From positions 1-37,982 of the forward strand of contig QQVI01000299.1 in assembly GCA_003388545.1 (NCBI GenBank): a stretch of DNA of 37,982 nucleotides, given 5' to 3'. This DNA is from Actinomycetota bacterium. GTDB taxonomy: Bacteria > Actinomycetota > Acidimicrobiia > Spongiisociales > ZC4RG35. The notes under the pieces are model-generated. The model ran no database searches and was not told the origin of the DNA. It saw only the letters and a list, made by a program, of their open reading frames with translations. Position numbers and translations under genes: made by a program. Shown one piece after another: positions 15,705 to 37,525 of this stretch; within the stretch, counting starts at the first letter, position 1; each line of letters starts with the position of its first letter.

Positions 15705-15741
15705 CGACTGCAGGATCCCTCCCAATGTTGGGCACTGCCGG

Positions 15742-16871: not shown

Positions 16872-16899
16872 CAGACCGGTAGAAGCCGACAGTCGTGCA

Positions 16900-16926: not shown

Positions 16927-16951
16927 GCCGACCGGCCAGTAGAGGACCGAT

Positions 16952-19096: not shown

Positions 19097-19145
19097 GGTA
19101 AGAGGTATGGCGCTCTGACGCCCCCGCGAGAGCTCGGAGGTCGAC

Positions 19146-20327
19146 ATGGCAGACGTGAAGCTTCCTTTCACCCGGGAGGAGTACGGGCGTCGGTTGGACA
19201 AGGTCCGTGCGGCCATGGCCCGGGACGGAATCGACGTCCTCGTGATCAGCGACCCGTCCAACATGGGATGGCTCACCGGCTACGACGGCTGGTCGTTCTA
19301 CACCCATCAGGCGGTGCTGGTCGACCATGAGAATGACCCGATCTGGTGGGGCCGAGTCCAGGACGGCAACGGAGCGAAACGCACCGTCTACATGGAGCAC
19401 GATCGCATCATCGGCTATCCCGATCACTTCGTGCAGTCGACCGAGCGTCACCCCCATCAGCACCTCGCCGCGCTGATGGCCGATATGGGCCTCGTCGGGC
19501 GGGTCGGCGTCGAGATGGACAACTATTACTACTCGGCTTCTGCCCACTCCTACCTATCAAAGGAGCTGCCAGATTCGTCGTTTCACGACTCCACGGGTCT
19601 GGTCAATTGGCAGAGGGCCGTCAAGTCCGAACAGGAGCTTGCGTACATGCGCGCTGCGGGAGGGATCGTGGAGAAGATCCATGATCGAATCCTCGAGATA
19701 GCAGAGCCAGGCATGCGCAAGAACGAGCTCGTGGCCGAGATCTATCACACAGGCATTGTTGGGACTGATGAGTACGGCGGCGACTACCCGGCGATCGCTC
19801 CCCTGCTGCCCACGGGTGCCGACGCCTCTGCTCCTCACCTGACCTGGGACGACCGACCCCTGCAGGTAGGCGCAGGCACCTTCTTCGAGGTCGCTGGGTG
19901 TGTGAAGCGCTACCACACACCGCTCTGCCGAACCCTTTTCCTTGGCGATCCACCCGAAGAGATGCGAAGAGGCGAGCAAGCCCTCGTCGAAGGGCTCGAG
20001 GCCGGCCTGGATGCGGCCCGAGCGGGCAACCGGGCCTCAGATGTCGCAACCGCGCTGTATGCCGCCTTGGACAAGGCCGGCATCGAGAAGGAGGGAAGGT
20101 GCGGATACCCGATCGGGCTCAGCTACCCACCCGACTGGGGTGAGCGGACGATCAGCTTCCGCAAGACGGATCACACCGTGCTCGAGCCGAACATGACGTT
20201 TCACTTCATGCCAGGGCTATGGATGGACGACTGGGGCCTCGAGATCACCGAGAGCATCGTCATCACCGAAGACGGGCCGGCAGAGACCCTCACCAACTAT
20301 CCCCGAAAGCTGTTCGTGAAGAACTGA
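19146..20327 (+). CDS. doeA: ectoine hydrolase DoeA/EutD
   Basis: Protein of 393 residues with the creatinase N-terminal domain (residues about 8-150) and an M24 'pita-bread' domain (about 165-390). It opens with FTREEYGRRLDKVRAAMA and has ISDPSNMGWLTGYDGWSFYTHQAVLV, close to characterised DoeA/EutD proteins, which open the ring of ectoine to N-acetyl-2,4-diaminobutyrate. Metal ligands of true M24 peptidases are only partly kept, as is usual in DoeA. GGAGG precedes the ATG. It follows the ehu transport genes directly and overlaps the next gene by 1 nt (TGATG). Hydroxyectoine is probably also a substrate, by family knowledge. Confidence 0.9.
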   Translation: MADVKLPFTREEYGRRLDKVRAAMARDGIDVLVISDPSNMGWLTGYDGWSFYTHQAVLVDHENDPIWWGRVQDGNGAKRTVYMEHDRIIGYPDHFVQSTERHPHQHLAALMADMGLVGRVGVEMDNYYYSASAHSYLSKELPDSSFHDSTGLVNWQRAVKSEQELAYMRAAGGIVEKIHDRILEIAEPGMRKNELVAEIYHTGIVGTDEYGGDYPAIAPLLPTGADASAPHLTWDDRPLQVGAGTFFEVAGCVKRYHTPLCRTLFLGDPPEEMRRGEQALVEGLEAGLDAARAGNRASDVATALYAALDKAGIEKEGRCGYPIGLSYPPDWGERTISFRKTDHTVLEPNMTFHFMPGLWMDDWGLEITESIVITEDGPAETLTNYPRKLFVKN

Positions 20328-21322
20328 TGTCAGCTCCGCTCGTAGACGACATCAAGCAGGCAAGAGAGCGGATCCGCGGATTCGCGCACACGTCACCGAC
20401 CATCGTGTCTTTCCCCCTATCGAGGCTGCTGGACGCCGACGTACGCCTCAAACTCGAATGTTTCCAGGACACGCGAGCGTTCAAGGTTCGTGGGGCCGCA
20501 AACGCCATCCTCACCAGCCGAGAACGGGGTGACGTCAATCATCTCGTGACCTATTCGACGGGCAATCACGGCCGGGCCACAGCTCTTGTCGGCGCCCGCC
20601 TCGGCATCCCGACCAGCGTGGTGATGTCGAACATGACCACGGACGACAAGAGACAGGCGCTGACAGATATGGGGGCGGAGCTGCACTTGGTAGGCAAGTC
20701 TCAGGATGAGGCGCAAGCTCATGCGATGGAGCTCGCTTCTCGGGGGATGACTCTGATCGACCCCATCAACGACCCGGCCTCAACCGCAGGGCACGGGACG
20801 ATCGCTTTGGAGATTATCGAGCAATTTCCTGAGGTGGACACCGTGGTGGTCCCGGTCTCCGGTGGCGCCCTCGCCTCAGGCGTGGCGATTGCCCTCAAGG
20901 CTGAGAGGCCCGAAACGAGAGTCGTTGCCGTATCGATGGACCGGGGCGCTGCAATGTACGAGAGCCTGCGCGCCGGAAAACCCGTCGAGGTGCCCGAGGT
21001 AGAGAGCCTGGCCGACTGCTTGCAGGGCGGAATCGGGCTCGAGAACGATCACACATTCGCCACCGTCCGAGACCTCATCGACGAATTCGTCCTGGTCACC
21101 GAGCAGGAGATCGGTGTGGCGATGGCCGAGGCGTATTACGTGGAGCGACTCATCCTGGAGGGGGCAGGTGCGACTCCGATCGCTGCCGCAATCAAAGGCG
21201 ATCGAAGCATCTTTGGAGATCACATCGCCCTCATAGCAACCGGTGGCAACACGACCACAGCAAAAGCTGCGGCGGTGGCGGAACAGCATCGTCGCCTACT
21301 GCCGGAGCGATTCCAGCCATGA
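20327..21322 (+). CDS. second EutB-like PLP ammonia-lyase/dehydratase
   Basis: Protein of 331 residues, fold-type II PLP family, clearly related to EutB at 11864-12856 (shared SQDEA, ADxLQGGIGLEN and the same length). The PLP lysine is in RAFKVRGAAN (near residue 51), STGNHGRATA is intact, and the phosphate loop is changed to SGGALASG. It differs in the lysine-flanking residues (RAFK instead of GSFK) and the active-site entrance, so it may act on a different substrate, for example the open-chain product of DoeA and the deacetylase. It is coupled to doeA by a 1-nt overlap and to the M20 gene by an ATGA overlap, so it is made together with both. Exact reaction unknown. Confidence 0.8.
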   Translation: MSAPLVDDIKQARERIRGFAHTSPTIVSFPLSRLLDADVRLKLECFQDTRAFKVRGAANAILTSRERGDVNHLVTYSTGNHGRATALVGARLGIPTSVVMSNMTTDDKRQALTDMGAELHLVGKSQDEAQAHAMELASRGMTLIDPINDPASTAGHGTIALEIIEQFPEVDTVVVPVSGGALASGVAIALKAERPETRVVAVSMDRGAAMYESLRAGKPVEVPEVESLADCLQGGIGLENDHTFATVRDLIDEFVLVTEQEIGVAMAEAYYVERLILEGAGATPIAAAIKGDRSIFGDHIALIATGGNTTTAKAAAVAEQHRRLLPERFQP

Positions 21323-22482
21323 GAGAGCTGCGGGACCGGACGATGATGACCCTGGGTGACCTGGTCGGTTTCCCCACGATCACCGAGGCGTCCAACCTGG
21401 ATCTCATCGACTACGCCAACATCATGCTGGAGCCTCTGGCGTCAGACATACGAATCACCCACGACGAGAACGCAACGAAGGCCAACCTGTTCGCGACGAT
21501 CGGCCCGAATGTCGACGGCGGAGTGATCCTCTCAGGCCATACCGACGTCGTACCTGCCGAAGACTTCGATTGGACGGGACCGCCGTTTCTCGCCACCAGA
21601 CGGAAGCAGAAGATCTACGGACGTGGCACTGCCGATATGAAGGGTTTCATCGCGTGTGCCCTTGTCATGGCAACAGAGTTCGCCGCGGCTCCCCTTCAGC
21701 GACCCGTCCACATCGCCCTCACCTTCGATGAGGAGATCGGCTGCCGCGGAGCGCCCATTCTCATCTCCGACCTCGAGCGCAACGGTCCCAAGCCGGCTAC
21801 CGCAATCGTTGGAGAGCCGACGAGCATGGAGATCGTCACCTCCCACAAGGGTTGCTACGAGTACACGACCTACATCAACGGGATCGAGGGACACGGGTCG
21901 GCGCCTGACCGTGCCGTCAGCGCGGTCGAATATGGCGCGATCTACATCAACCGTCTGTTGGAGCTCGGCGAGGAGCTGAAGGCGCGGGCGCCCGACAGCA
22001 GCCCTTACGACCCGCCTCACACCACGGTGAACGTAGGGATGATGACCGGTGGGACCGCTCGCAACGTCATCGCCGGCGAGTGCATCATCGAGTGGGAGAT
22101 GCGCCCGGTCCGCAAGGAGGATGCCGAGCACGTTGTGCGGGAGATGACGGCCCTGGAGAGCGAGATCACACAGCGAATGCAGGCTGTCAGCCCGGACGCT
22201 TCTATCGCCACGGTCACCGAGGGAGCGGTCGACGGGCTTCAGGACCTCCCCAACGATCCCGCCTTCGATCTCGTGAGCGAGATCTGTGGATCCTCGACCC
22301 GGCAAGTGGCGGCGTTCGGGACCGAAGCCGGTCTGTATCAGCTCGCCGGGATTCCCGCGGTTGTCTGCGGGCCCGGAAGCATCGATGTCGCCCATCGCCC
22401 CGACGAGAACATCAGCCTTGAACAACTGGAACGCTGTCTGGAGATGATGAAAGGACTCATTGGGAAGCTATCAGAGACATAA
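21319..22482 (+). CDS. M20-family deacetylase (ArgE-like), probable DoeB substitute
   Basis: Metal-dependent amidohydrolase of 387 residues, closest in style to acetylornithine deacetylase. Ligand motifs in order: SGHTDVVPAEDFDWTGPPF (His and following Asp), GRGTADMKGF, FDEEIGCRGAP, VGEPTSMEIV, FGTEAGLYQ and the final DVAHRPDENI with its His. The dimerisation domain lies at about residues 180-290. In ectoine breakdown, N-acetyl-diaminobutyrate must be deacetylated; the classic enzyme DoeB/EutE is of the AstE/aspartoacylase type and is absent here, so this M20 enzyme is inferred to take that step. N-acetyl-diaminobutyrate is a close homologue of acetylornithine, which makes this plausible. Four-nt overlap with the upstream gene. 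Confidence 0.8.
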   Translation: MRELRDRTMMTLGDLVGFPTITEASNLDLIDYANIMLEPLASDIRITHDENATKANLFATIGPNVDGGVILSGHTDVVPAEDFDWTGPPFLATRRKQKIYGRGTADMKGFIACALVMATEFAAAPLQRPVHIALTFDEEIGCRGAPILISDLERNGPKPATAIVGEPTSMEIVTSHKGCYEYTTYINGIEGHGSAPDRAVSAVEYGAIYINRLLELGEELKARAPDSSPYDPPHTTVNVGMMTGGTARNVIAGECIIEWEMRPVRKEDAEHVVREMTALESEITQRMQAVSPDASIATVTEGAVDGLQDLPNDPAFDLVSEICGSSTRQVAAFGTEAGLYQLAGIPAVVCGPGSIDVAHRPDENISLEQLERCLEMMKGLIGKLSET

Positions 22483-22544
22483 GATCCGGCTCCGACGGCG
22501 GCCGTAGAAAAGAGAAGCCGTCCACAACAAGGGCGATAGCCTGC

Positions 22545-23030
22545 TTGCTCGCGTTGCTGCTGGCACTCGGTGCCTGCGGAACGGGCGATGAGGAACAGGC
22601 CGTCTCAGACCTCCAACTCGTGGGTGTCGATTTCGAGTTGAACTCGATCATCCTCACCAACGGAGGCACCGACGATCTCACCACGCGAGACATCTGGATC
22701 TATCAGGACGGTGAAGCGTTCATGCTCGACATTTTCAGAATCGAGCCAAGAGATGTGATCCTGTTCAGCGTCAGGGAGCTCGGGCTTCTCGACCCCTCAG
22801 GGGGAGAGATCGCAGTCTATGAAGGGTCCGATTTCGACGACGAGACCACGATGCTCGACTACGTCGCTTGGGGGTCGGGCGGCCACGACAGGCTGGAAAC
22901 GGCCTCAGCGGGCGGTGAGTGGGCCCAGGAAGGCACAGTCGACGTAGAGGCGGGCACCATCGTTCTCCTGCGCCCAGATCCCCTATTCAACGGGCCAGAC
23001 GCGTGGGAGCAGAGTGACGTGATCCCCTAG
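22545..23030 (+). CDS. lipoprotein with lamin-tail-like fold
   Basis: About 161 residues from TTG 22545. The sequence LLALLLALGAC is a good lipobox. The mature part is beta-rich with LTNGGTDDLTTRDIWIYQDGE, PRDVILFSV and MLDYVAWG, resembling lamin-tail (LTD) domains, but this is by pattern only. The start is odd: upstream codons continue in frame (RKEKPSTTRAIAC) and would give the expected positively charged signal n-region, yet contain no ATG, GTG, TTG or CTG back to the M20 gene. Either the short signal is used, or a rare start or a sequence error hides the true one. Confidence 0.6.
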   Translation: MLALLLALGACGTGDEEQAVSDLQLVGVDFELNSIILTNGGTDDLTTRDIWIYQDGEAFMLDIFRIEPRDVILFSVRELGLLDPSGGEIAVYEGSDFDDETTMLDYVAWGSGGHDRLETASAGGEWAQEGTVDVEAGTIVLLRPDPLFNGPDAWEQSDVIP

Positions 23031-23128
23031 TCGAACCTCCCGATCACGGTGCGGGCTCTCCGAAAGCCCGTGTCGGTGGTGAGGGCTCTGGGCTGCGACC
23101 GCGATTGTCCGTAATCGCGCGCCGCGAA

Positions 23129-23134
23129 TACATT
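23129..23134 (+). promoter_or_regulatory. -10 element of cydA, probably leaderless
   Basis: TACATT ends 7 nt before GTG 23142, and TTGTCC (23105-23110) lies 18 nt upstream as a possible -35. A TTG at 23133 would fall inside the -10, which argues for GTG 23142 as the start. Confidence 0.45.
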
Positions 23135-23141
23135 GAGAGCC

Positions 23142-24509
23142 GTGAGATCCGTTCAAATCCTCGCAGATTTGAACCTACTGGCGGCGCGGAACCAAATGGC
23201 CATCAGCCTCGGCTTCCACATCATTCTCGCCGCCCTTGGCATCGGATTTCCGCTGATAACTCTCATCGCTCACTGGCGGGGCCTGCGCACCGGGGACAAT
23301 CACTACCTGGAGCTGGCAAGACGCTGGGCGAAGACCATGGCAGTCCTCTTCGCAGTCGGGGCCGTCTCCGGGACCATCCTCAGCTTCGAGATGGGGATGC
23401 TCTGGCCCGGGCTCATGGGCCCCTACGGCGACGTGATCGGCCTCCCGTTCACTCTCGAGGGCGTCTCGTTCTTCCTCGAGGCGATCTTCATTGGCATCTA
23501 CCTCTACGGGTGGAAGAGGATGTCGGCCCGACTTCACTTCCTCTCCTTGTTCCCGATCGTGCTCGCCGGGATCGCCGGATCCTTTTTCATCCTCACGGTC
23601 AACTCCTGGATGAACTCCCCCGCCGGGTTCGAGATCGTGAACGGGGAGGTGGTCAACGTCGATCCTTGGGCCGCAATGTTCAACGACGCCACCGCCGTCC
23701 AATACACCCACATGCTTCTAGCCGCCTACATGGTCTCTGGCTTCCTCGTTGCTGGGGTCTATGCATGGGGCTGGCTGAAAGGGAGACGGGATCGGCACCA
23801 CAAGCTCGGGTTCATCATCGCCTTCTCGGTCGCAGCCGTCGCCGCACCAATCCAGATTCTGGTCGGTGACACCGCGGCAAGGAGGCTCATCGACGCCCAG
23901 CCTGCGAAGTTCGCAGCCATGGAACTGGTCACAGAGGGAGGAAGCAACGCACCGTTCACCATCGGCGGCATCCTCGTCGATGGCGAGGTGGTCGGTGCGA
24001 TCGAGATCCCGGGACTCGGCTCCCTCCTGGGGACCCGGAGCTTTGATGGAGAGCTGCCGGGGCTCGACGACATACCACCCGATGAGATCCCGCCGGTGAA
24101 CATCGTTCATATCTCGTTCCAGGTCATGGTGGCGATCGGAACTGGCCTACTCCTCCTCTCGGCGTGGTTTGCCATCCGCTGGTGGCGCAAGAAGTCACTG
24201 CCCGAGTCGAGATGGTTCTGGCGACTGGCCGCCGTGTCGGGGGCGGCAGCCGTGGTAGCAATGGAGGCGGGTTGGATCACAACCGAGGTGGGACGACAGC
24301 CCTGGATAGTTTGGCAACAGGTGCGGACTGCCGACGCCGTGACCAACGCCGATGGGCTGATTTGGAGCCTCATCCTGATCACGGTGGTCTATGTCGGTCT
24401 CGCTACGGCTTCGGTGCTGGCCTTGAAACGCATAAGCAGGGGTTTCGCCTCCGGCCAAGACGTCGCCACCCCCTACGGGCCACCCGTGCCTGAGGCAACC
24501 GGCGACTGA
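23142..24509 (+). CDS. cydA: cytochrome bd-type quinol oxidase subunit I
   Basis: Membrane protein of 455 residues. Residues about 10-30 (ARNQMAISLGFHII) carry the His ligand of the high-spin haem side; EMGMLWPGLM and TLEGVSFFLEAIFIGIYLYG hold the conserved glutamates; AVQYTHMLLAAYM has the b558 His; WITTEVGRQPWIVW is the GRQPW quinol-site motif. The Q-loop is the short type, as in cyanide-insensitive oxidases. The enzyme reduces oxygen with quinol and gives high-affinity or stress-tolerant respiration. The GTG start follows a -10 at the spacing expected for a leaderless message. It overlaps cydB by 1 nt. Confidence 0.93.
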   Translation: MRSVQILADLNLLAARNQMAISLGFHIILAALGIGFPLITLIAHWRGLRTGDNHYLELARRWAKTMAVLFAVGAVSGTILSFEMGMLWPGLMGPYGDVIGLPFTLEGVSFFLEAIFIGIYLYGWKRMSARLHFLSLFPIVLAGIAGSFFILTVNSWMNSPAGFEIVNGEVVNVDPWAAMFNDATAVQYTHMLLAAYMVSGFLVAGVYAWGWLKGRRDRHHKLGFIIAFSVAAVAAPIQILVGDTAARRLIDAQPAKFAAMELVTEGGSNAPFTIGGILVDGEVVGAIEIPGLGSLLGTRSFDGELPGLDDIPPDEIPPVNIVHISFQVMVAIGTGLLLLSAWFAIRWWRKKSLPESRWFWRLAAVSGAAAVVAMEAGWITTEVGRQPWIVWQQVRTADAVTNADGLIWSLILITVVYVGLATASVLALKRISRGFASGQDVATPYGPPVPEATGD

Positions 24510-25576
24510 TGCTTCCGAACGTAATCGCTGGGATCATCTGGTTGGGGATCTCGGCGTATGCCATCTTCGGAGGCGCCGATTTTGGTGGTGGTATCTGGGA
24601 CCTTTTTGCAGGGGGGCCGGAGAAGGGCCGACGCCCCCGGGCCTTGATTGAACGCGCGATCGGCCCGGTCTGGGAGGCGAACCATGTGTGGCTGATCTTC
24701 GTGCTCGTATACCTCTGGACTGCCTTTCCCGAGCCATTCGTGTCAATCGCAACAACACTGTGGATCCCACTGACGTTGGCGGCACTGGGCATCATCTTCC
24801 GGGGATCAGGCTTCGCCTTCAGGAAGTGGGCGGACACGGTTGGCAGGCAGCGTTGGTATGGAGCGTGGTTCGCCGGCGCGTCGGCCTTGACCCCCTTCTT
24901 TCTGGGGACAGTCGTTGGTGGCGTTGCCTCCGCGCGCGTGCCGCTGGGGAATGCCGAAGGTGACGTCTTCGGCTCTTGGCTCAACCCGACATCGCTTCTC
25001 GGCGGAGTGATGGCGGTCGTTGCATGTGCCTACCTGGCAGCCGTTCTCCTGACGAGGGAAGCAGTCCTCGACCAGGAAACCGACCTCGCCGAGTACTTTC
25101 GCCTGCGGGGATTGATTGCCGGTGCGGCTGCCGGCGTCGTCGCCATTGCAGGCATATTCGTCTTGCGTTGGGACGCCCCTTCTCTCTACGAGGGTCTCCT
25201 ATCAACCAGAGGAATCGTCCTGATAATCGGTTCGGCAGCCGGCGGCGTGGCCTCGCTCTGGCTGCTTTGGAATCGCCGCTTCCTGGCGGCCCGGCCCACG
25301 GCTGCACTGGCCACAGTCGCCGTTCTTTGGGGGTGGGGCGCTGCCCAGTACCCGTGGGTGCTGGAGGACGCCGCTTCGATTGAGGACTTCGCGGCATCTG
25401 ATCCGGTCCTGACGGCGATGATCATCGCCTTTGCCGCGGCCGCGGTCCTGGTGGTCCCGTCTCTCGTCTGGCTATTTCGGTTGACACAGACCCGATCCCT
25501 CGTGGAGGGCGATATCAGAGCCGACTCAACCGAGGCTCTGATGATCAAGAATCAGACGCCCCGAGAAAAGGCTTGA
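24509..25576 (+). CDS. cydB: cytochrome bd-type quinol oxidase subunit II
   Basis: Membrane protein of 355 residues with about nine membrane segments. It begins VIAGIIWLGISAYAIFGGADFGGGIWDL and has GPVWEANHVWLIFVLVYLWTAFP, the conserved opening of CydB/CioB, and FRGSGFAFRKWAD further on. It pairs with CydA in the bd oxidase. ATG overlaps the cydA stop (TGATG), so the subunits are coupled. No cydX or cydDC genes were seen. Its C-terminal tail (RADSTEALMIKNQTPREKA) is hydrophilic. Confidence 0.93.
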   Translation: MLPNVIAGIIWLGISAYAIFGGADFGGGIWDLFAGGPEKGRRPRALIERAIGPVWEANHVWLIFVLVYLWTAFPEPFVSIATTLWIPLTLAALGIIFRGSGFAFRKWADTVGRQRWYGAWFAGASALTPFFLGTVVGGVASARVPLGNAEGDVFGSWLNPTSLLGGVMAVVACAYLAAVLLTREAVLDQETDLAEYFRLRGLIAGAAAGVVAIAGIFVLRWDAPSLYEGLLSTRGIVLIIGSAAGGVASLWLLWNRRFLAARPTAALATVAVLWGWGAAQYPWVLEDAASIEDFAASDPVLTAMIIAFAAAAVLVVPSLVWLFRLTQTRSLVEGDIRADSTEALMIKNQTPREKA

Positions 25577-25603
25577 CTCTCCCCTTGGGGTAGACGCGAT
25601 AGT
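25573..25603 (+). promoter_or_regulatory. MerR-type promoter with 19-bp spacer
   Basis: TTGACT (25573-25578) and GATAGT (25598-25603) are separated by 19 bp, the over-long spacer typical of MerR-activated promoters. The spacer contains the dyad TCTCCCC-TT-GGGGTAGA. The -10 ends 7 nt before ATG 25611, so the message is probably leaderless and autoregulated. Confidence 0.7.
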
Positions 25604-25610
25604 GGCGGAT

Positions 25611-26450
25611 ATGGAAAGCGAAGCGCTCGGCCGTCTGCTCCCGATTGGGGCCTTCTCCAACATGACGAGACTCTCGATCAAAGCCCTGAGACTCTACGAC
25701 GACATGGGGATCCTGTCCCCAGCCCACGTTGACCAGTCGAGCGGGTACCGCTACTACACGCGGGGGCAGGCGAACCGGGCCGAGGCGATTCGGCTATTGC
25801 GGGGCGTCGACATGCCCTTGGACGAGATCAGTGAGGTTCTCGAGGCCGAGCCCGACGTCGCCCGGAAGTTGCTCGATGCCCATCGGGACCGGCTGGTCGA
25901 TCGCCTTGGCGCTCATCAGAGGATGCTCGCATTCCTCAACGACCTGTTGGACGGAAAGGAGCGTTTGATGCCCTACGAGGTCAATGTCAAGACCGTGCAA
26001 GATCAGCGAGTCGCCGCTCTGCGCAAACACGCAACCCACCAGACGATCGGGGACGAGATCGCCGGGGGTTTCGCCACCCTCATGCAAGCCGTGATGTCAT
26101 CGGGCACCTCCCCCAATGGTGCCCCTCTGATCATCTTCCACGATGTCATCGACGAGCAGAACGACGGCGACATTGAGATCTGCATACCCATAGGCGAAGC
26201 GAACTTCGAAGATGGCGAGGTTGTGGCGCGAACGCTTCCGGGAGGGCCGATGGCCTTCACCATGCACAAGGGCCCTTATCAGGAGGTGACTCCGGCCTAT
26301 CACGCTCTGCTCGCCTGGATCGACGACCGCGGTCATGCAACCCTGGCCGGGCCTAGAGAGATCTATCTGAACGACCCGACTCAGGTAGAGGAGGAGGAAC
26401 TCCTGACCGAAATCCAGTGGCCGATCGACACGGCTGAGGGGGATGTGTAG
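25611..26450 (+). CDS. MerR-family regulator with GyrI-like effector domain
   Basis: Protein of 279 residues. The MerR winged helix (residues about 9-78) has TRLSIKALRLYDDMGILSP and SSGYRYYTRGQANRAEAIRLLRG; a coiled coil follows to about residue 115; residues about 120-272 form a GyrI-like (AraC effector-binding) domain as in BmrR-type multidrug sensors. It should respond to a small hydrophobic or cationic ligand, not identified. ATG 25611 is chosen because the alternative GTG 25602 lies within the promoter's -10. It begins 34 bp after cydB, whose 3' end abuts the operator. Confidence 0.88.
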   Translation: MESEALGRLLPIGAFSNMTRLSIKALRLYDDMGILSPAHVDQSSGYRYYTRGQANRAEAIRLLRGVDMPLDEISEVLEAEPDVARKLLDAHRDRLVDRLGAHQRMLAFLNDLLDGKERLMPYEVNVKTVQDQRVAALRKHATHQTIGDEIAGGFATLMQAVMSSGTSPNGAPLIIFHDVIDEQNDGDIEICIPIGEANFEDGEVVARTLPGGPMAFTMHKGPYQEVTPAYHALLAWIDDRGHATLAGPREIYLNDPTQVEEEELLTEIQWPIDTAEGDV

Positions 26451-26483
26451 GAGTCGATCGGTTTGCTTCTGCTCCGGCCAACT

Positions 26484-27251
26484 TCAGAGGGCGTAGAGCG
26501 AGGTTCCTGAGTCGAGGAGCTCCCGCGCCGCAGCGCGGAGAGTTCGCCGGGTCACGTTGAACAGCAGGCTCCCCGTCGACACCCGTCTGACTCCCAGCTT
26601 GCGAAGCTCCTCGACAGAAGGCGCCACGGGCAGAGCGAGGACGTTGAGAGGAGCTCGGACCTCTTCAACCACCCGCCCGATGTCATCCGAGCTCACCAGC
26701 CCCGGTGCGTATGCGACCTCGGCACCGACCTCCCTGTAGGCGGTCAGCCGGTCGATGGTGTCCGAGAGATCGAGAACACCGTACAGGTGGTTCTCACATC
26801 GTGCGGTCAACACCAGGCCCGTGCGGCCACAAGCCTCTGCAGCCTCGGCCACCGCCTCGACTGCTTCATCGAAAGGCACGACTTGCTTGGCGCTGGGGTC
26901 GTAGTCTTCGATCGAGCATCCCGCCGCCCCAGCTTCGGCAAGCAGTTCCACGCAACGCCGGACCCCTCCCTCTTCTTCGGGAAAGAGCCGCTCCGAGTCG
27001 ACACTCAGTGGCACAGAGATGACGTTTGTGAGCTCGGAGACATGCTGAAGAAGCTCACTGCGGGTGACCTGCTGATCGTCTTTGCCAATCGACCGGCCCA
27101 GTCCCGCGCTCGTGGTCGCCAACGCGGGAAACCCCATCTCTTCGAGCAGGAGGGCCGAGCCACGATCCCAGGGGTTGGGCATGACGAAGATCCCATCCTG
27201 GTGCAGTTCTCGGAAACGGTCGGGGCTGCTCAGAAACGTAGAGACTACCAA
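26484..27251 (-). CDS. isocitrate lyase/PEP mutase-family protein
   Basis: Protein of 255 residues of the phosphoenolpyruvate mutase/isocitrate lyase superfamily. IFVMPNPWDRGSALLLEEMGFPALATTSAGLG is the typical opening barrel strand with the PNPWD motif; VPLSVDSERLFP holds the metal-binding Asp; GCSIEDYDP supplies the Glu-Asp pair; LTARCENHLYG stands where the family has ARTD. The ARTD Asp is thus Glu-Asn here, within the variation seen in uncharacterised members. Such proteins usually cleave or form carbon-carbon bonds next to a carboxylate; the substrate is unknown. TTG start, no clear ribosome site; divergent from the DUF885 gene. Confidence 0.8.
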   Translation of the reverse strand: MVVSTFLSSPDRFRELHQDGIFVMPNPWDRGSALLLEEMGFPALATTSAGLGRSIGKDDQQVTRSELLQHVSELTNVISVPLSVDSERLFPEEEGGVRRCVELLAEAGAAGCSIEDYDPSAKQVVPFDEAVEAVAEAAEACGRTGLVLTARCENHLYGVLDLSDTIDRLTAYREVGAEVAYAPGLVSSDDIGRVVEEVRAPLNVLALPVAPSVEELRKLGVRRVSTGSLLFNVTRRTLRAAARELLDSGTSLYAL

Positions 27252-27323
27252 CGCTCAACGAGGGGTCAGCCAGTACGGTCAATGTCACGCGCCAAGCGCA
27301 AGGCGACCAGAGATCGGAGGAGG

Positions 27324-28979
27324 ATGAGCCTGGACAGAATCGCCGAGGAATACTGGCGACTCGTTTGCGAATACGCGCCGACGATCGCAACCGTGAGGGG
27401 GGAGCACGAATTCGACGACCAGCTGCGCACATTCGACTCCAGCTCACTGGATGTACTTGCTTCACGATTCCGAACGATCGCCGCGGAGGCCGGGGGACTC
27501 GACACCACCGACCTCTCCATCCAGGAGCAGATAACGGTTGGGCTCGTCGCCCACGAGGCAGGAGTCTGGGCAACAGAGATCGAAGACAGGCTGATGGTGG
27601 CTCCGATCGACCCTTATCTGGGTGTACACACACGACTGCTCTCGGACACGAGGATGAACACGGTCCAGACCCGAGACCAGGCGGACGCCCTCCTCGATAG
27701 GTACCGCAAGGTGCAGGATCACCTCCGAGAGGCCCTTGCGTTCACCCGGGACAACGCTGCCCATGGGTTGACACCCACCCTGGCGTCACTCAGGCGCGTG
27801 TTGGATCAGCTCGATCGCTATCTCCGATCAGACCTCTCGGATGACCCATTCCTCAAGCTGCAGGTCCCTGGAGAGGACTCAGGATGGCATGCAATGGCTC
27901 GAGAGATCGTGGAAAAGACGGTTCGGCCCGCCTTCGCCGAATACCGAGCGGGTCTGGCTGACTACATAGCCCCCACTGCCCGACCGGACGACCGCGTCGG
28001 CCTCAAATGGATCCCGGGTGGAGATCGGATATATCAGTCGTTGATCCACCGATACACCCAGCTCGAGAGAACGGCGCAGGAGATTCACGACATCGGTCAG
28101 AAGTGGGGCACCGAGATTCTCGTCGATCAATGGGCTGAGATCGGCCAAGCTGCTTTCGGGTTGGACGATATCGAGCGGCTCTTCGCCCACCTGCACCAGG
28201 ACCCTGCACTCCGCTTTGGCTCCGCCGATGAGATGCTCGAGCATGCCCGGGACGCCGTGGACCGGGCATGGGATGCTGTGGACGACTGGTTCAACCTCAA
28301 ACCGACGGAGAAGTGCGACGTCGTGCCTGTTCCCGAAGCGGTTGCGCCGGCCATGCCGCCTGCCTACTACATGCAGCCACCGACCGACTTCTCACGGCCT
28401 GGGACCTACTTCCTCAACACCCACAAGCCCGAGGAGAGGGACCGGTTTGAATACGAGTCGATTCACTTCCACGAAGCGATACCCGGCCATCACTTCGACC
28501 GCACGATTGCGTCGCGACTCGATGTCCCCACGTTCAGAAAGTTCTCCCAGGTCTACGCCCACACCGAAGGCTGGGGTCTCTACTCGGAGAGGCTGGCCGA
28601 CGAGATGGGTCTCTACTCCTCAGACGTAGATCGCCTCGGCGCAATCAGCGCCGACGCATGGAGGGCCGGCCGGCTCGTCGTAGACACCGGAATGCATGCC
28701 TTGGGCTGGTCGCGGCAACAAGCCATTGACTGGCTGGCGAAGTGGACCCCAATCGGGAGACTTACGATCGAACAGGAGGTCGACAGGTACATCGGGATGC
28801 CCGGTCAGGCCCTTTCCTACAAGATGGGACAGCTCGAGATCCTCGATTTGCGCCACAGGGCGAAAGAACGGCTTGGCGACGAGTTCGACATCAAGGCATT
28901 TCACGACGTCATGCTTGGCTACGGAGCGATGACGCTGCCCATGCTGCGCAGACGGGTTGAAGAAGATCTGTTGACGTGA
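27324..28979 (+). CDS. DUF885-family metallopeptidase-like protein
   Basis: Protein of 551 residues, the normal length of DUF885 proteins, which resemble gluzincin peptidases. HFHEAIPGHHF (about residue 390) is the HExxxGH-type zinc motif, and AHTEGWGLYSERLADEMGLY holds the downstream Glu helix. The C-terminal part has YIGMPGQALSYKMGQLEI, conserved in the family. No signal peptide, so it acts in the cytoplasm. ATG 27324 is chosen for the GGAGGAGG just before it; an in-frame ATG at 27282 adds a very basic 14-residue extension without a ribosome site. Its substrate is unknown. It is convergent with the coiled-coil protein gene, 7 bp away. Confidence 0.85.
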   Translation: MSLDRIAEEYWRLVCEYAPTIATVRGEHEFDDQLRTFDSSSLDVLASRFRTIAAEAGGLDTTDLSIQEQITVGLVAHEAGVWATEIEDRLMVAPIDPYLGVHTRLLSDTRMNTVQTRDQADALLDRYRKVQDHLREALAFTRDNAAHGLTPTLASLRRVLDQLDRYLRSDLSDDPFLKLQVPGEDSGWHAMAREIVEKTVRPAFAEYRAGLADYIAPTARPDDRVGLKWIPGGDRIYQSLIHRYTQLERTAQEIHDIGQKWGTEILVDQWAEIGQAAFGLDDIERLFAHLHQDPALRFGSADEMLEHARDAVDRAWDAVDDWFNLKPTEKCDVVPVPEAVAPAMPPAYYMQPPTDFSRPGTYFLNTHKPEERDRFEYESIHFHEAIPGHHFDRTIASRLDVPTFRKFSQVYAHTEGWGLYSERLADEMGLYSSDVDRLGAISADAWRAGRLVVDTGMHALGWSRQQAIDWLAKWTPIGRLTIEQEVDRYIGMPGQALSYKMGQLEILDLRHRAKERLGDEFDIKAFHDVMLGYGAMTLPMLRRRVEEDLLT

Positions 28980-28986
28980 GGTTCCC

Positions 28987-29262
28987 TCAGAGGTAGTACT
29001 CAGCCTTGGCTCCTGAATCGGGCAGATCCGGAACGCGCTCATACCTGGACGCGTCTCCGGCCTGCTCCCGCGCCAGTCCCACACCCTCGCGGGCGGCCTC
29101 GTCTTTCAGCTCTCCAAGGCGGGCCTCCAATGTCTGTTCCTCGTCGAGCAGCTCGGCTCTTCGCTCATAGCTGTCTGACGGCAGACCTGCTCGCTCGTTC
29201 TCGATCTCGACCAGGCGCGCCCGTATTCTCTCGATTCTGTTGGCGAGTGTTTCCGTAGTCAT
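28987..29262 (-). CDS. small coiled-coil stress protein, hypothetical
   Basis: Protein of 91 residues, highly charged and helical (residues about 2-62 show a heptad-like pattern of Leu and Ile), with a short loop-rich C-terminus. AAAGGAG precedes the ATG. A GTTT-N16-GGGTA element at 29317-29341, overlapping the end of the baeRF gene, gives it its own SigB-like promoter in addition to possible read-through from that gene. No family recognised; stress role inferred from the promoter and neighbours. Confidence 0.7.
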   Translation of the reverse strand: MTTETLANRIERIRARLVEIENERAGLPSDSYERRAELLDEEQTLEARLGELKDEAAREGVGLAREQAGDASRYERVPDLPDSGAKAEYYL

Positions 29263-31012: not shown

Positions 31013-33685
31013 TCAGACGTTCTTGCGCGACGCCACTCTGACGACCTGTCCGACAACCAGAGGTACCAGGCTGGCACCAAGAACCATCAGCCACTGATAA
31101 CCCTCGAGAGCCACCACCTCCATGACGATGCTGAGGGGTGGGATGTACATCAGGGCGAGCAGTAGGAGGCCGGAGACGAGGATGGCCCCCCAGATCCAAG
31201 GGTTGGTCGTGATTTCAGTGCGGATTACGTCGTCTTCCTCGCTCATGTTGAACACGTGCCACAACTGGGCGAAGGCGAGCGTCAGGAAACTCATGGTCGT
31301 CGCCGTGGAGTCATCGAGACCCAGAGACCGAGTCGCCACGAAGAGGACGACCATCACCGGGATCGTGATCAAGACGCCGTAGCCGGCGATACGCGCCCAA
31401 CGAGTGGGAGTAAGCACGCCTTCATCCTGCGGCCTTGGGGGGCGGTTCATGATCGTCTCGTCGCCCGGAGACACCCCGAGAGCCAAAGCGGGGAACACAT
31501 CAGTGACCAGATTGAGGTAGAGAATCTGCAATGGCAGGATCGGCAGGGGGAGGCTGAGAACGGACCCAATCCCAACGACGAGGATCTCGCTCAGGTTGCT
31601 CGACAACAAATACATGACGAACTTGCGAATGTTGTCGAAGATGATCCGGCCCTCACGGATGGCATCAACAATCGACCGAAAGCGGTCGTCCTGCACGACC
31701 ACGTCGGCTGCCTCCTTGGCGACGTCTGTGCCGCGCTCTCCCATTGCCACACCGATGTCCGCCTTCTTCAAGGCCGGGGCGTCATTGACCCCATCTCCGA
31801 TCATCGCCACGCTCTGACCGCGGTTCTGCCTGGCTGTGATGAGGTCGAGCTTCTGCTCGGGGCTGGTTCGGGCGAATACGTGGGTCTCACCCAGGACCTG
31901 CTCATCGACGTCACCAGAAGCCAGGTCGCTTCCCGTCAAGGCCGGGCCGCTCTCGTCGATCGCAAGCTCTGCGGCGATAGCCGACGCAGTTGCGGGCTGG
32001 TCGCCGGTGACCAGAACCACGTCTATCCCGGCGTTATGGCACTCTCGGATGGCGTCTCCAACATCGCTCCGCGGCGGATCGATCAGCCCCACCAGCCCGA
32101 GGAAGGTCATCTCGGCATATGGGTCAGCGTCCCTGTCGTCTACATTGCGCCGCGCCAATGCAAGAACCCGCATCCCGTTCGCTGCGAGCTTCTCGTTTCG
32201 ATCGAGCCAGTCCTCTATTTCCGCAGGCCCAAGTACGTGCTCACCATCCGGCGTGGAGATTCTCGACGAGGCGTGAAGAACGGCTTCGGGGCCTCCTTTG
32301 ACGGCCCAGAAGAAGCCATCGCCGGCACGATGCAGCGTCGCCATGAGTCTGCGACCAGGATCGAAGGGGACCTCATCGACCTCCGGCGTGTCTTCGATGA
32401 GCTCTTGTCGGTGAATCCCCGCTTTGAGCCCGCCCATCAACAACGCTACTTCGGAAGGGTCGCCGGCAGCGTCAGTCTTGGGATTGGCACCCAAGGTTGC
32501 ATTGGTGCACAAGACGGCCATTCGAAGGGCCTCTTCAAGAAGGGCATCCCCGCTCGCATCACCGTCATCTTTCGTCACCTCACCCTCCGTCGTGAAGCCA
32601 CCACCAAACCGGTACTCTGCTCCAGCCATCACAAGTCTCTGGAGCACCATCTCGTTCTCGGTGAGGGTTCCCGTCTTGTCGGTGAGAATGACGCTCACGG
32701 AGCCCAGGGTCTCGACGGCAGCCAGCTTCTCGATCAGGACGTTCCGCTCCGACATGCGTTTCATGCCCCGCGCCAAAGCCACGGTCGCGACGATGGGCAA
32801 GCCCTCGGGGATAGCCGCCACAGCGAGGGCAATCGCCGTCTCGACGGTGGTGCGGAGGTCGCGACCGGAGAGCACACCAAGGGCCACGATTACCAGGGCA
32901 ATACCGAGCGTGAGCCAGAGCAGCTTGTGTCCGAGTCGTCCGAGCTGCTGCTGGAGTGGAGTCTCGGGTTGATCGGCCTCCGCGACGAGTCGCGTGATGC
33001 GGCCTAGCTCGGTCTCCATGCCCGTGGACACGACAACGCCTTCGCCCGAGCCGTTGGTGACGGCCGTACCCTTGTGGAGCATCGGTGGCCTCTCGGCAAG
33101 CACGGCGTGGTGCTCGACCGGTGCAGGGTCCTTGTCTACCGGTGTCGATTCACCGGTGAGGGTGGACTCGTCCACCGCCACATGACCTTCGAGGAGGCGC
33201 AGATCGGCCGTGATCACGTCGCCGCCCTCGAAGACCACGATGTCCCCCGGCACGAGCTCCTCAGCGTCGACCAGTCGCGTCTCACCGGACCGCCGCACCT
33301 TCGTCTCGACTCTGCCGAGCTCGCGTAGCGATTCCATAGACCTGACAGCCCGGACCTCGGTGACAAACCCGATCGCAGCATTGAGCACGATGACGACGGC
33401 CACGGCTGCGGCCTCGGCCAGTTCGCCGAGCAGGAACGAGACGAGCGTCGCAGCCGCGAGCAACGCGATGATCACGCTCTTGAACTGGTCTACGAGTATC
33501 GACCATGCCGACACCTCTTCGGATGCCTGGAGCTGATTGCGCCCGAATCGCTCGAGTCGATCCTCCACGTCGGCCTGGCTGAGACCATCTCTGTTGGATC
33601 CGAGAGTTTCGAGGACGTCGTCAACCCGCTCAGCCCATACCGGATGCTCTGATCCGGGCAGGGTGGCCTCCTCGGCGCTACTCAT
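31013..33685 (-). CDS. cation-transporting P-type ATPase (type II, Ca2+-like)
   Basis: Protein of 890 residues with the full P-type architecture: an N-terminal cation ATPase domain (PVWAERVDDVLETLG, GLSQADVEDRLERFGRNQL), actuator motif TLTGEST, helix M4 motif IPEGLPIVATVAL, phosphorylation site DKTGTLTENE, nucleotide domain, TGDQPATA and the hinge GDGVNDAPALKKADIGVAMG, then the C-terminal membrane helices. PEGLP and the overall layout fit type II pumps, most likely exporting Ca2+ (or Na+/Mn2+). The ATG at 33685 is chosen over a long upstream extension that would run through the neighbouring promoter. It is divergent from the small basic protein gene. Confidence 0.9.
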   Translation of the reverse strand: MSSAEEATLPGSEHPVWAERVDDVLETLGSNRDGLSQADVEDRLERFGRNQLQASEEVSAWSILVDQFKSVIIALLAAATLVSFLLGELAEAAAVAVVIVLNAAIGFVTEVRAVRSMESLRELGRVETKVRRSGETRLVDAEELVPGDIVVFEGGDVITADLRLLEGHVAVDESTLTGESTPVDKDPAPVEHHAVLAERPPMLHKGTAVTNGSGEGVVVSTGMETELGRITRLVAEADQPETPLQQQLGRLGHKLLWLTLGIALVIVALGVLSGRDLRTTVETAIALAVAAIPEGLPIVATVALARGMKRMSERNVLIEKLAAVETLGSVSVILTDKTGTLTENEMVLQRLVMAGAEYRFGGGFTTEGEVTKDDGDASGDALLEEALRMAVLCTNATLGANPKTDAAGDPSEVALLMGGLKAGIHRQELIEDTPEVDEVPFDPGRRLMATLHRAGDGFFWAVKGGPEAVLHASSRISTPDGEHVLGPAEIEDWLDRNEKLAANGMRVLALARRNVDDRDADPYAEMTFLGLVGLIDPPRSDVGDAIRECHNAGIDVVLVTGDQPATASAIAAELAIDESGPALTGSDLASGDVDEQVLGETHVFARTSPEQKLDLITARQNRGQSVAMIGDGVNDAPALKKADIGVAMGERGTDVAKEAADVVVQDDRFRSIVDAIREGRIIFDNIRKFVMYLLSSNLSEILVVGIGSVLSLPLPILPLQILYLNLVTDVFPALALGVSPGDETIMNRPPRPQDEGVLTPTRWARIAGYGVLITIPVMVVLFVATRSLGLDDSTATTMSFLTLAFAQLWHVFNMSEEDDVIRTEITTNPWIWGAILVSGLLLLALMYIPPLSIVMEVVALEGYQWLMVLGASLVPLVVGQVVRVASRKNV

Positions 33686-33715
33686 CGGGCAGCGACCTCG
33701 AGGAGGACTCGGGCC

Positions 33716-33739
33716 GTTTGTGTGAGTTGGAGCGGGGTA
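33716..33739 (+). promoter_or_regulatory. SigB/SigF-like promoter of small basic protein gene
   Basis: GTTT (33716-33719), 15 nt, GGGTA (33735-33739), continuing AAATCG. The predicted start gives a leader of about 19 nt that contains AAAGGAG. Confidence 0.7.
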
Positions 33740-33765
33740 AATCGATTTCGGATGAAAGGAGACAC

Positions 33766-33930
33766 ATGCCGGTGAAGAGAAGTAAAGACAGCAAAGGCCC
33801 CTATTACCAATGGGGCGAGAAGGGCAAGAAGTACCACTACGAGTCGGGAGACGCCGGCTCGCGTCAGAAAGCCAAGGACAAGGCGGTGAAGCAGGGTCAG
33901 GCGGCCCGGGCATCGGGCTACGAAGGCTGA
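33766..33930 (+). CDS. small basic protein, probably nucleic-acid-binding
   Basis: Protein of 54 residues, rich in Lys, Gly and aromatic residues: PYYQWGEKGKKYHYESGD, then SRQKAKDKAVKQGQAARASG. The pattern of a Tyr/Gly-rich half followed by a Lys/Arg/Ala helix is shared by small phage and archaeal basic proteins thought to bind nucleic acid; this is resemblance only. AAAGGAG 5 nt before the ATG and a SigB-like promoter make it a well-supported gene despite its size. It is probably highly expressed in stress. Confidence 0.75.
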   Translation: MPVKRSKDSKGPYYQWGEKGKKYHYESGDAGSRQKAKDKAVKQGQAARASGYEG

Positions 33931-35191: not shown

Positions 35192-35216
35192 GTTTGGGCC
35201 GAGGCGCACCCGGGTA
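35192..35216 (+). promoter_or_regulatory. SigB/SigF-like promoter of GlsB-like gene
   Basis: GTTT (35192-35195), 16 nt, GGGTA (35212-35216). The predicted start gives a leader of about 20 nt with AAAGGAG before ATG 35245. Confidence 0.7.
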
Positions 35217-35244: not shown

Positions 35245-35493
35245 ATGGGCTTGCTGATCTGGCTCGCCCTGGGACTTGCTGTCGGCGCGGTTGCGGCATT
35301 CGGCCTTGCCGACACAAAGGGTGACACGGCGAGCACCGTCGCCCTTGCTCTCGTCGGGGCAGCGATTGGGGGCTTCGTCGGCAATGTCATCGTCGACGGC
35401 AGCTTCGAGGGCAATCCGGCAGGAATCACCGGAGCGGTCGTAGGGACCATCGTCACTCTCGCCATCTATCGAGCGGCGGACACCACCATCTGA
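35245..35493 (+). CDS. GlsB/YeaQ-family small membrane protein
   Basis: Protein of 82 residues with three hydrophobic segments separated by short loops (about residues 2-20, 32-50 and 58-75), Gly-rich as in the GlsB/YeaQ/YmgE family. AAAGGAG precedes the ATG. It has a SigB-like promoter and lies directly upstream of the sigma-fusion gene's promoter, which fits the known stress induction of this family. A related copy at 1520-1798 lacks that promoter. Confidence 0.8.
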   Translation: MGLLIWLALGLAVGAVAAFGLADTKGDTASTVALALVGAAIGGFVGNVIVDGSFEGNPAGITGAVVGTIVTLAIYRAADTTI

Positions 35494-35494
35494 G

Positions 35495-35519
35495 GTTTCA
35501 TCCCAGCGACCATCGGGTA
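35495..35519 (+). promoter_or_regulatory. SigB/SigF-like promoter of the sigma-fusion gene
   Basis: GTTT (35495-35498) preceded by GAG, 16 nt, GGGTA (35515-35519) then CAAC. This is a close match to the SigF consensus GGTTT-N15/16-GGGTA and implies autoactivation. The leader is about 93 nt, longer than at the other sites. Confidence 0.7.
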
Positions 35520-35619: not shown

Positions 35620-36732
35620 ATGCCGATCACGATGACCAAGCCAATCCGGACCGAGCTGCCTAATGATCCGGAATCTGCGTTCATAGCTCGCCGATTCATC
35701 AGGGAGAACGCGACTCTCGACTCGATGCGCCAAACGGAAGCCGACCTCCTCGTGACGGAGTTGATTGGCAACGTCATTCAACACGCCCCTGATGCGAGAG
35801 AGATCGAACTGACTCTGGAACAAGACCGGGCGGTCGGGTTGAAGGTGACTGTGTCGCATGAGGCAGAGGCCGGCATCGATGGCGCCGGCCAGGGTGTGGG
35901 GCATCTCGTTGCCGAGAGGCTGTCGCGCCGCTGGGGAACTCATTTTGACAACGGCCGGCTGCACGTGTGGTTCGTGCTCCGCACTCCAGGGTCGGTGACC
36001 CTGTCGCCCGACCTGAGCGATCAAGACCTGTTCAATCGTATGTCCGAGGACCCGTCATCGTTCTCTGGAGAGTTGATCCGACGTCATGGGGATCTCGCGG
36101 AGGCCATCTCGAAGCGCTACCGCGGCAAAGGCATAGATGACGAGGACCTGCGCCAGGTTGCCCAGATGGCGCTTCTCAAGGCAATCCAACGATTCGACGA
36201 TTCGTACGGCGACCTTCGCCCCTTCGCGGCGGTGACCATCTCAGGAGAGCTCAAGAAGCTACTGCGCGATCGGGGATGGTCGGTGAGAGTCCCCCGCACG
36301 CTCCAGGAGCGATCGCTCGAAGTGGCACGCGCCACCGAGCAGTTGACCCAACGCCTCAATAGGCCGCCAACCGACGACGAGGTAGCGGATGAGATCGGGA
36401 TCGACGCTGCGGCGGTCGACGAGGCTAGACGGGCCGGGAGGGCTTACTCATCGAGTTCCATTGAGAAGCCAACCGAGCGAACCGGGTTGACTCTCCTCGA
36501 CAGGCTCGAAGACGACGATCTCTCGGAATTCAATCGAGAAGACAAGATCATGATCACCGAGGCGATCAAGACGCTTCCTGTGCGCCAGCAGCAGATTCTT
36601 CGCCTCCGATTCGAAGAAGACATGACTCAAACCGAGATCGGAGACATCCTCGGGATATCACAGATGCATGTCTCCCGCCTTCTCAGCAAGGCGATTGACG
36701 CGCTGCGTGAGAAACTGGATGAAGGCGACTGA
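35620..36732 (+). CDS. fused RsbW-like anti-sigma domain and SigB/SigF-type sigma factor
   Basis: One open frame of 370 residues joins two normally separate and opposing proteins. Residues about 1-125 form an RsbW/SpoIIAB-like HATPase domain with the N-box ELIGNVIQHA and G2-type GQGVGHLVAERLSRRWG, but the G1 box (DxGxG) is lost: VSHEAEA stands where the free protein next door has VADNGP, so ATP binding and kinase activity are doubtful. Residues about 140-365 are a SigB-like sigma: region 2 with LRQVAQMALLKAIQRFD and FAAVTISGELKKLLRDRGWSVRVPR, region 3 with RPPTDDEVADEIG, region 4 with LPVRQQQILRLRF and TQTEIGDILGISQMHVSRLL. AGAGG precedes ATG 35620. Its own SigB-like promoter suggests autoregulation. 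Confidence 0.9.
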   Translation: MPITMTKPIRTELPNDPESAFIARRFIRENATLDSMRQTEADLLVTELIGNVIQHAPDAREIELTLEQDRAVGLKVTVSHEAEAGIDGAGQGVGHLVAERLSRRWGTHFDNGRLHVWFVLRTPGSVTLSPDLSDQDLFNRMSEDPSSFSGELIRRHGDLAEAISKRYRGKGIDDEDLRQVAQMALLKAIQRFDDSYGDLRPFAAVTISGELKKLLRDRGWSVRVPRTLQERSLEVARATEQLTQRLNRPPTDDEVADEIGIDAAAVDEARRAGRAYSSSSIEKPTERTGLTLLDRLEDDDLSEFNREDKIMITEAIKTLPVRQQQILRLRFEEDMTQTEIGDILGISQMHVSRLLSKAIDALREKLDEGD

Positions 36733-36803: not shown

Positions 36804-37181
36804 ATGGGTCTGAGTGACCAAATGGCTGAACTGAGGATGCGACTCGACTCGACCAAGGATGCCCCTCGAATATCGCGTCAGCGCATAGCTGAGATCAAAG
36901 GTGAGCTCGGCCCCCGGTTCGACGACGTCGCCCTCGTCATCTCCGAGCTCGTGAGCAACAGCGTTCGCCACGCGGGCAATGGATCCTTGCTCGTCTCGGT
37001 ACGCTCGGAAGGCGCAAAGATACGCCTGGAAGTCGCAGACAACGGGCCATGCTTCGACACAGACCACCCAAGGGGTGACGGCCTGGGTCTATCCATCGTC
37101 GACAAGCTGGCCGACTCATGGGGAATCGAGCCTGAGGGGATGTGCACGGTTTGGGCCGAACTGGCCCTACCTGATGACTGA
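36804..37181 (+). CDS. RsbW-like anti-sigma factor/serine kinase
   Basis: Protein of 125 residues, a stand-alone HATPase domain. All boxes are present: N-box ELVSNSVRHA, G1 VADNGPCFD and G2 GDGLGLSIVDKLADSWG. RsbW-like proteins bind a SigB-type sigma factor and inactivate it, or phosphorylate a STAS antagonist. It lies 71 bp after the sigma-fusion gene on the same strand, so that sigma (or another) is a likely target; the convergent STAS gene ends 5 bp after it. The ribosome site before ATG 36804 is weak. Confidence 0.85.
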   Translation: MGLSDQMAELRMRLDSTKDAPRISRQRIAEIKGELGPRFDDVALVISELVSNSVRHAGNGSLLVSVRSEGAKIRLEVADNGPCFDTDHPRGDGLGLSIVDKLADSWGIEPEGMCTVWAELALPDD

Positions 37182-37186
37182 AGGCC

Positions 37187-37525
37187 TCAGGTCAGCAACT
37201 CATCAGGAGATGAGACGATTTGAATCGTTGAGTCCACGCCACTCAGGTCGATAAGGCGCGAGATCGGCCCGTTCGTTACGACCAGGGCGAACTTTCGGTC
37301 GGCTTCCCGGAAAGAGCGGTCGGCCATGACAAGGCACCTCAGCCCGGTCGAGTCCATGAAATCAGATGTCCGCAGGTCGACTGCGAGATTTCCACCGTCT
37401 GACTCGAGAACCGATTTGATCTCCTTGTCGAGCTCGTCCACGGTCGCCAGATCGATCTCGCCAGATACGGCGAGCGACGACCAGTCCGGTCCGAAATGGT
37501 TGCGATCGATCGTGAGGCCCCTCAT
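37187..37525 (-). CDS. STAS-domain anti-sigma factor antagonist
   Basis: Protein of 112 residues covering one STAS domain. SSLAVSGEIDLATVDELDKEI is the first strand-helix unit, and LRTSDFMDSTGLRCLVMADRSF carries the conserved DSTGL serine that RsbW-type kinases phosphorylate in RsbV/SpoIIAA antagonists. The unphosphorylated form would release the sigma factor. ATG 37525 is preferred over a longer TTG frame because TACCAT, preceded by TG, ends 7 nt upstream, fitting a leaderless message. Convergent with the RsbW-like gene. Confidence 0.85.
   Translation of the reverse strand: MRGLTIDRNHFGPDWSSLAVSGEIDLATVDELDKEIKSVLESDGGNLAVDLRTSDFMDSTGLRCLVMADRSFREADRKFALVVTNGPISRLIDLSGVDSTIQIVSSPDELLT

Follow-up and report, generated by a model that had tools for sequence, protein, structure and literature searches.

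An RsbW-fold domain with a degenerate ATP site and a SigB/F/G-type sigma factor in one polypeptide

In the textbook form of partner switching, the sigma factor, its anti-sigma factor and the antagonist are separate proteins whose ratios set the response. An open frame in the 37,982-nucleotide stretch of DNA analyzed here (the window) raises the question of how such a switch would work when an anti-sigma-like domain and a sigma factor share one chain. The initial annotation read this frame as an RsbW/SpoIIAB-like domain followed by a SigB/SigF-type sigma factor, and the reading is borne out by a 370-residue frame, by profile matches and by the fold that AlphaFold predicts, which together define the following features.

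35620-36732, + strand: fused gene, predicted kinase-dead RsbW-like domain plus SigB/F/G-type sigma factor, 370 aa (frame, profiles, full-length homologues)
35620-35979, + strand: N-terminal domain of RsbW/SpoIIAB (GHKL) fold, aa 1-120 (RsbW/SpoIIAB profile matches, AlphaFold and Foldseek)
36073-36279, + strand: sigma region 2 (Pfam PF04542)
36310-36516, + strand: sigma region 3 (Pfam PF04539)
36562-36711, + strand: sigma region 4 (Pfam PF04545)

The frame runs uninterrupted from the ATG at 35620 to the TGA at 36732, with a purine-rich ribosome-binding site (GAGGTAGAAACATG) before the start codon and an in-frame TGA 5' of it at 35527. That two genes were joined by an error of sequencing or assembly is a negligible prospect: the window's assembly is fragmented (358 contigs), but codon composition is even over the junction, with third-position GC uniform at 0.70-0.75 up to codon 300, and the same fusion recurs in 14 independent assemblies, so that the sequencing error of which the initial annotation had warned is ruled out.

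With regions 2, 3 and 4 above the Pfam cut-offs (E 1.4e-11, 2.2e-12 and 6e-19) and a family profile match, the fused protein is a member of the SigB/SigF/SigG family. Its best NCBIfam subfamily is TIGR02980, at 211 bits slightly below the 234-bit cut-off, as in most fused relatives; a tree of sigma parts groups it with SigB/F/G factors, and it is the genome's only sigma factor of this type (213 bits vs. 133 for the next best). Two promoter motifs lie close by.

35495-35519, + strand: SigB/SigF-type promoter GTTT-N16-GGGTA before the fused gene, predicted autoregulation (motif search)
35192-35216, + strand: second SigB/SigF-type promoter, before a Transgly_assoc-like gene at 35245-35493 (motif search)

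Promoters of the GTTT-N16-GGGTA class had been proposed from the sequence at the outset, and the motif is indeed enriched: GTTT-N15-17-GGGTA occurs eight times in the window against 0.1 expected, seven times directly 5' of an open frame, and the genes so preceded include the fused gene, the Transgly_assoc-like gene, and YflT-like stress and peroxiredoxin-like genes. The whole genome holds 64 motifs against 18 for the reversed pattern, and the surroundings of the fused genes in other genomes hold 35 against 0.4 expected. Among 34 genomes, the motif excess is greater in those with a SigB/F/G sigma factor than in those without (p 2e-4, uncorrected for relatedness), G008 and G001 being exceptions. 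Since its genome has no other SigB/F/G sigma factor and the promoter class is enriched there, the fused protein very probably works as a sigma factor, and any inhibition of it would be reversible.

In G008, which belongs to the genus group of G022, 25 motifs were counted against 2 and no SigB/F/G sigma factor was found, possibly through an assembly gap. Two small frames in the window also follow such motifs: a Cys-rich metallothionein-like frame (MECAHGSCSCQV...) that follows a SigB-type motif at 2065-2089 (- strand), in the stretch down to about 1880, and a frame of about 54 residues from 33766 (MPVKRSKDSKGPYYQWG...), preceded by a SigB-type promoter at 33716-33739 (+ strand) and a ribosome-binding site, which sits inside the over-long N-terminus of a P-type ATPase frame (31013-33913). 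On contig C8 of G000, at least 10 SigB-type motifs in 14 kb (15620-29106) form a second stress-regulon cluster, close to genes for a trypsin-PDZ protease and for a protein like a ribosome hibernation factor (S30AE).

The N-terminal domain falls below the Pfam cut-offs (HATPase_c, 21.8 vs. 26.4 bits; HATPase_c_2, E 0.011), so that routine annotation would miss it; in the annotated sigma factors of this order, a regulatory domain thus goes unseen. A profile of the domain and its relatives matches Mycobacterium tuberculosis RsbW/UsfX (1e-22), Bacillus subtilis RsbW (1e-20), and SpoIIAB (2e-14). Because this profile also includes free RsbW proteins, the fold of the window's own domain provides more independent evidence: the AlphaFold model (pLDDT 93.4, pTM 0.87) retrieved with Foldseek the M. 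tuberculosis SigF/anti-sigma complex 8jzt as the top match, as well as SpoIIAB, at TM 0.72-0.76. The domain has the GHKL fold of the RsbW type and, as an RsbW fold without a G1 box, it fits the kinase-less anti-sigma factors of the RsbW1/UsfX type, although a poorly resolved domain tree sets the fused domains apart from the cognate UsfX-type genes. In the full-length model (pTM 0.57, pLDDT 89.9), the two halves are placed with low mutual confidence, no cis interface is seen, and Foldseek retrieved sigma factors only; its domain arrangement was not counted for any mechanism.

The ATP site and the conserved face of the domain are marked by four short features.

35689-35691, + strand: Arg24, invariant, aligned with RsbW Arg23 (alignment; PMC7340262)
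35758-35760, + strand: Glu47 of the N-box, invariant, aligned with RsbW Glu49 (alignment)
35851-35871, + strand: degenerate G1 box VSHEAEA, DxGxG lost (as in 14 of 15 fused proteins)
35887-35901, + strand: residual G2-like motif GQGVG (motif comparison)

Motif comparison confirms the loss of the G1 Asp that had been noted in the window, where the fused protein reads VSHEAEA and the neighboring RsbW reads VADNGP, and the degenerate ATP site proves to be a property of nearly the whole family, with DxGxG absent from all fused copies except that of G306 (VTDPGP). The window's copy keeps the Glu and Asn of the N-box and part of G2 (GQGVG); the Asn, which binds Mg, is present in five others and lost in the remaining copies, and G2 decays in parallel. 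Judged by the N, G1, and G2 motifs that mark a STAS kinase, the domain is not classed as an active RsbW kinase. On one point the initial annotation needs qualifying: a kinase-less RsbW is nothing exceptional as such (M. smegmatis RsbW1 and M. tuberculosis UsfX; PMC7693655). In M. smegmatis the non-kinase RsbW1 is the anti-SigF factor and RsbW2 is a separate kinase (PMC7693655), and UsfX, the nearest solved relative of the fused domain, for which there are crystal structures with SigF region 4 (8jzt) and with the STAS protein RsfB (8ih8), itself lacks G1.

Arg24, Leu43, Glu47, and Trp105 are invariant in 14 aligned fused copies. In RsbW, Arg23 bonds Asp23 of RsbV and Glu49 contacts the RsbV phospho-acceptor Ser56 (PMC7340262); Arg24 and Glu47 are equally invariant in free RsbW-like proteins, and thus identify the conserved binding surface of the fold and no specific partner. 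For the domain, the two most similar pairs give dN/dS values of 0.09 and 0.11, and two pairs further apart, in which synonymous sites are near saturation, give 0.22-0.29, indicating a constraint that is weaker than on the sigma part (0.01-0.15). With G1 lost, Arg24 and Glu47 invariant and dN/dS low, the domain is degenerate as an enzyme yet maintained. Its faster evolution relative to the sigma part and the stepwise loss of its ATP motifs could also describe a decaying passenger with no role, but this is very improbable given a dN/dS of 0.09-0.29, the invariant positions, the lack of any truncation in 15 loci, and the presence of the domain in every member of an old clade in which identity falls to 34%.

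The initial annotation had proposed a search for the two-domain architecture across Actinomycetota. In such searches, 14 genomes, all from one order, proved to carry the fusion at full length, in 15 loci, with homologues 34-56% identical to the window's protein. Of 34 genomes searched in the same family, 12 account for 13 full-length copies, one of them with a pair, and a thirteenth has a fused copy interrupted by the end of its contig; elsewhere in the order, two genomes have a single full-length copy each. Outside the order, the architecture was absent among the listed matches from a class draw (395 genomes) and a phylum draw (396 genomes), the latter searched with a full-length profile and a domain profile of which the eight best outside hits were read, with E-value limits such that a divergent N-terminal domain in another group could escape. 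In a scan of a named genome collection, the matches were all either unfused sigma factors or STAS-sigma fusions.

The tree of sigma parts unites every fused protein, the truncated copy included, in one clade (SH-aLRT 85) nested among unfused SigB/F/G sisters from the same order, a topology consistent with a single old fusion. Although the nearest unfused sigma factors of this order do carry the two domains as separate genes, no member of the fused clade does, which answers the concern that homologues might always carry the two domains apart. The tree of the RsbW-fold domains places the fused ones in two groups, though at a resolution too poor to require two origins. An origin by simple read-through of an ancestral rsbW-sigF pair is not supported: four fused loci still carry a separate rsbW in the ancestral place, and the domain tree, poorly resolved as it is, also fails to join the fused domains with the separate rsbW.

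Two further partner-switching genes adjoin the fused gene downstream.

36804-37181, + strand: predicted STAS kinase, a free RsbW-like protein whose N, G1, and G2 boxes are all intact (HATPase_c E 3e-11, motifs)
37187-37525, - strand: STAS anti-sigma antagonist with DSTG phospho-acceptor motif (STAS E 1e-13, TIGR00377 over cut-off)

Together with a MASE1-SpoIIE-HATPase protein encoded away from this locus, the gene content predicts a complete partner-switching set of sigma factor, RsbW-type kinase, STAS protein, and PP2C phosphatase of the SpoIIE type, which may act jointly. In most fused loci elsewhere, a STAS gene and a separate HATPase gene are likewise present, often with a four-base overlap with the fused gene, and the free HATPase varies in type, orientation, and place between loci. 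The second fused paralogue of G017 (L039:4644-5801) has no STAS or HATPase neighbor in the stretch read, and the stretch read around the G025 copy shows no free HATPase.

The sister unfused sigma factors lie in STAS - kinase-less RsbW - sigma operons. A profile of this kinase-less RsbW retrieved a separate orthologue (E<1e-30) next to the fused gene of G002, G004, G018, and G306 and retrieved none in 10 of the 14 fused genomes, including the window's (best match 8e-8), some of these assemblies being incomplete and the loci themselves contiguous in most. This absence suggests that the fused domain may have replaced the separate anti-sigma factor. From the architecture, its conservation, the selection on it, the motif loss, the neighboring genes, and the promoter enrichment, we infer inhibition, release by STAS, and the kinase and phosphatase roles in a switch to which we give an even chance, in which the fused domain serves a general-stress sigma factor of SigF/SigB type as a kinase-dead anti-sigma, acting in cis and relieved by a STAS protein that free RsbW phosphorylates. 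In the unstressed cell the domain would hold sigma regions, most likely 4 and/or 3, inactive, either in cis or within a dimer that it mediates. Unphosphorylated STAS (37187-37525) would bind the Arg24/Glu47 face and free the sigma factor, which would then transcribe its own gene and the surrounding stress genes from GTTT-N16-GGGTA promoters. As the fused domain is predicted to lack kinase activity, phosphorylating STAS and so resetting the switch would fall to the neighboring free RsbW (36804-37181), and the SpoIIE-type phosphatase encoded elsewhere would reverse the phosphorylation. Of the two releasing factors that the initial annotation had suggested for its intramolecular switch, free RsbW is more likely such a STAS-inactivating kinase. 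The predicted roles would map onto RsbW1 (fused domain), RsbW2 (free RsbW), RsfB (STAS), and the phosphatase (MASE1-SpoIIE-HATPase).

A possible though unlikely alternative is that the fused domain does not inhibit alone and pairs with free RsbW through its first strand and helix, the sigma factor carrying one anti-sigma half and the free kinase bringing the other half and the regulation. RsbW dimerizes through strand 1 and helix 1, both predicted intact in the fused domain, and binds SigB 2:1 (PMC7340262); in M. smegmatis, RsbW1 is bound by RsbW3, which is proposed to antagonize it as a heterodimer (PMC7693655), and a free RsbW adjoins most fused genes. Yet the free HATPase is inconstant in type, orientation, and place, none was found next to the second G017 copy or the G025 copy in the stretch read, and 8jzt, in which three M. 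tuberculosis RsbW/UsfX chains accompany three 69-residue SigF chains comprising region 4, suggests 1:1 binding of anti-sigma to sigma region 4 in the closest relative. The more specific proposal of a group 3 sigma factor of new design, which carries a pseudo-kinase half and is inhibited as a heterodimer with the free kinase, is doubtful; if true, it would tie sigma release stoichiometrically to the kinase/STAS balance and not to anti-sigma abundance.

Improbable, too, is a role purely as a receiver of STAS, in which the fused domain is needed for activation or stability and free RsbW inhibits; this would resemble the sigma-SsdA system, where a fused STAS domain serves as the handle for binding by an RsbW-like domain. 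In that system, the regulator's target is the fused regulatory domain, not the sigma domain, and sigma function is abolished when the former carries a mutation (PMC10733313); residues for STAS contact are retained in the domain studied here. This reading would leave unexplained how 10 of 14 fused genomes came to lose their separate gene for a kinase-less anti-sigma factor. It is mainly this loss that leads us to prefer the cis-acting inhibitor over both alternatives. Some observations count against it: in G002, G018, G004, and G306, which retain a separate kinase-less anti-sigma factor, the fused domain is not the sole candidate inhibitor, the second G017 copy lacks both partner genes next to it, and the window's free RsbW gene has no GTTT/GGGTA promoter before it.

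Among the closest known parallels is the mycobacterial RsbW1/UsfX-SigF-RsfB/RsfA system with RsbW2, which shares the SigF-type sigma factor, a kinase-less RsbW-fold domain, a separate kinase, STAS proteins, and GTTT/GGGTA-type promoters; its anti-sigma factor is a separate protein, whereas here the RsbW-like domain is N-terminal on the sigma factor and a separate kinase-less anti-sigma factor was not found. The Bacillus systems RsbW-SigB-RsbV and SpoIIAB-SigF-SpoIIAA share the domain fold, the conserved Arg and Glu, the sigma family, and a neighboring STAS gene, but RsbW and SpoIIAB are separate ATP-binding kinases and the fused domain has no G1 box. Single chains that join comparable parts include Rv1364c of M. 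tuberculosis (PDB 3ke6; PMC7693655), with fused partner-switching modules and an RsbW-like domain, which has phosphatase, kinase, and STAS parts without a sigma factor. IutY of Pseudomonas putida and other ECF-anti-sigma fusions (PMC5411451, PMC8999054) also unite sigma and anti-sigma in one polypeptide; in these, however, an ECF sigma factor bears a membrane-spanning, C-terminal FecR-like anti-sigma domain and is released by proteolysis, with no HATPase and no partner switching. Sigma-SsdA of Actinoplanes missouriensis, with its partner SipA (PMC10733313), is a SigB/F/G sigma factor with a partner-switching domain in the same chain, but that domain is a C-terminal STAS antagonist, so that the N-terminal anti-sigma-type HATPase found here is not of the sigma-SsdA type. 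Sigma/anti-sigma fusions, sigma-STAS fusions, and kinase-less RsbW are thus already known, and we found no description of an RsbW-fold domain fused to a SigB/F/G sigma factor in the open-access literature, making the combination apparently new.

A fixed 1:1 fusion removes the sigma/anti-sigma ratio as a control knob and splits the anti-sigma role from the kinase role, cleanly and naturally. It also offers a simple system in which to study the sigma surfaces that an RsbW-fold domain has to hold, the possibility of inhibition in cis, and the way in which STAS would release a tethered inhibitor.

Some related domain arrangements were seen along the way. In G006 (L049:4193-4948) and G020 (L050:4078-4818), one HATPase-STAS protein is encoded directly upstream of the fused sigma gene and overlaps it, which may be compared with the sigma-SsdA partner, itself composed of HATPase and STAS domains. 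In Actinoplanes sandaracinus (L084:5803-6987), a STAS domain is C-terminal to the sigma factor, as in sigma-SsdA. The opposite order, with STAS N-terminal to a SigB/F/G-type sigma factor, was found in Planosporangium flavigriseum (L085:5269-6420) and Dactylosporangium fulvum (L110:5488-6645), so that N-terminal STAS-sigma fusions occur in Micromonosporaceae.
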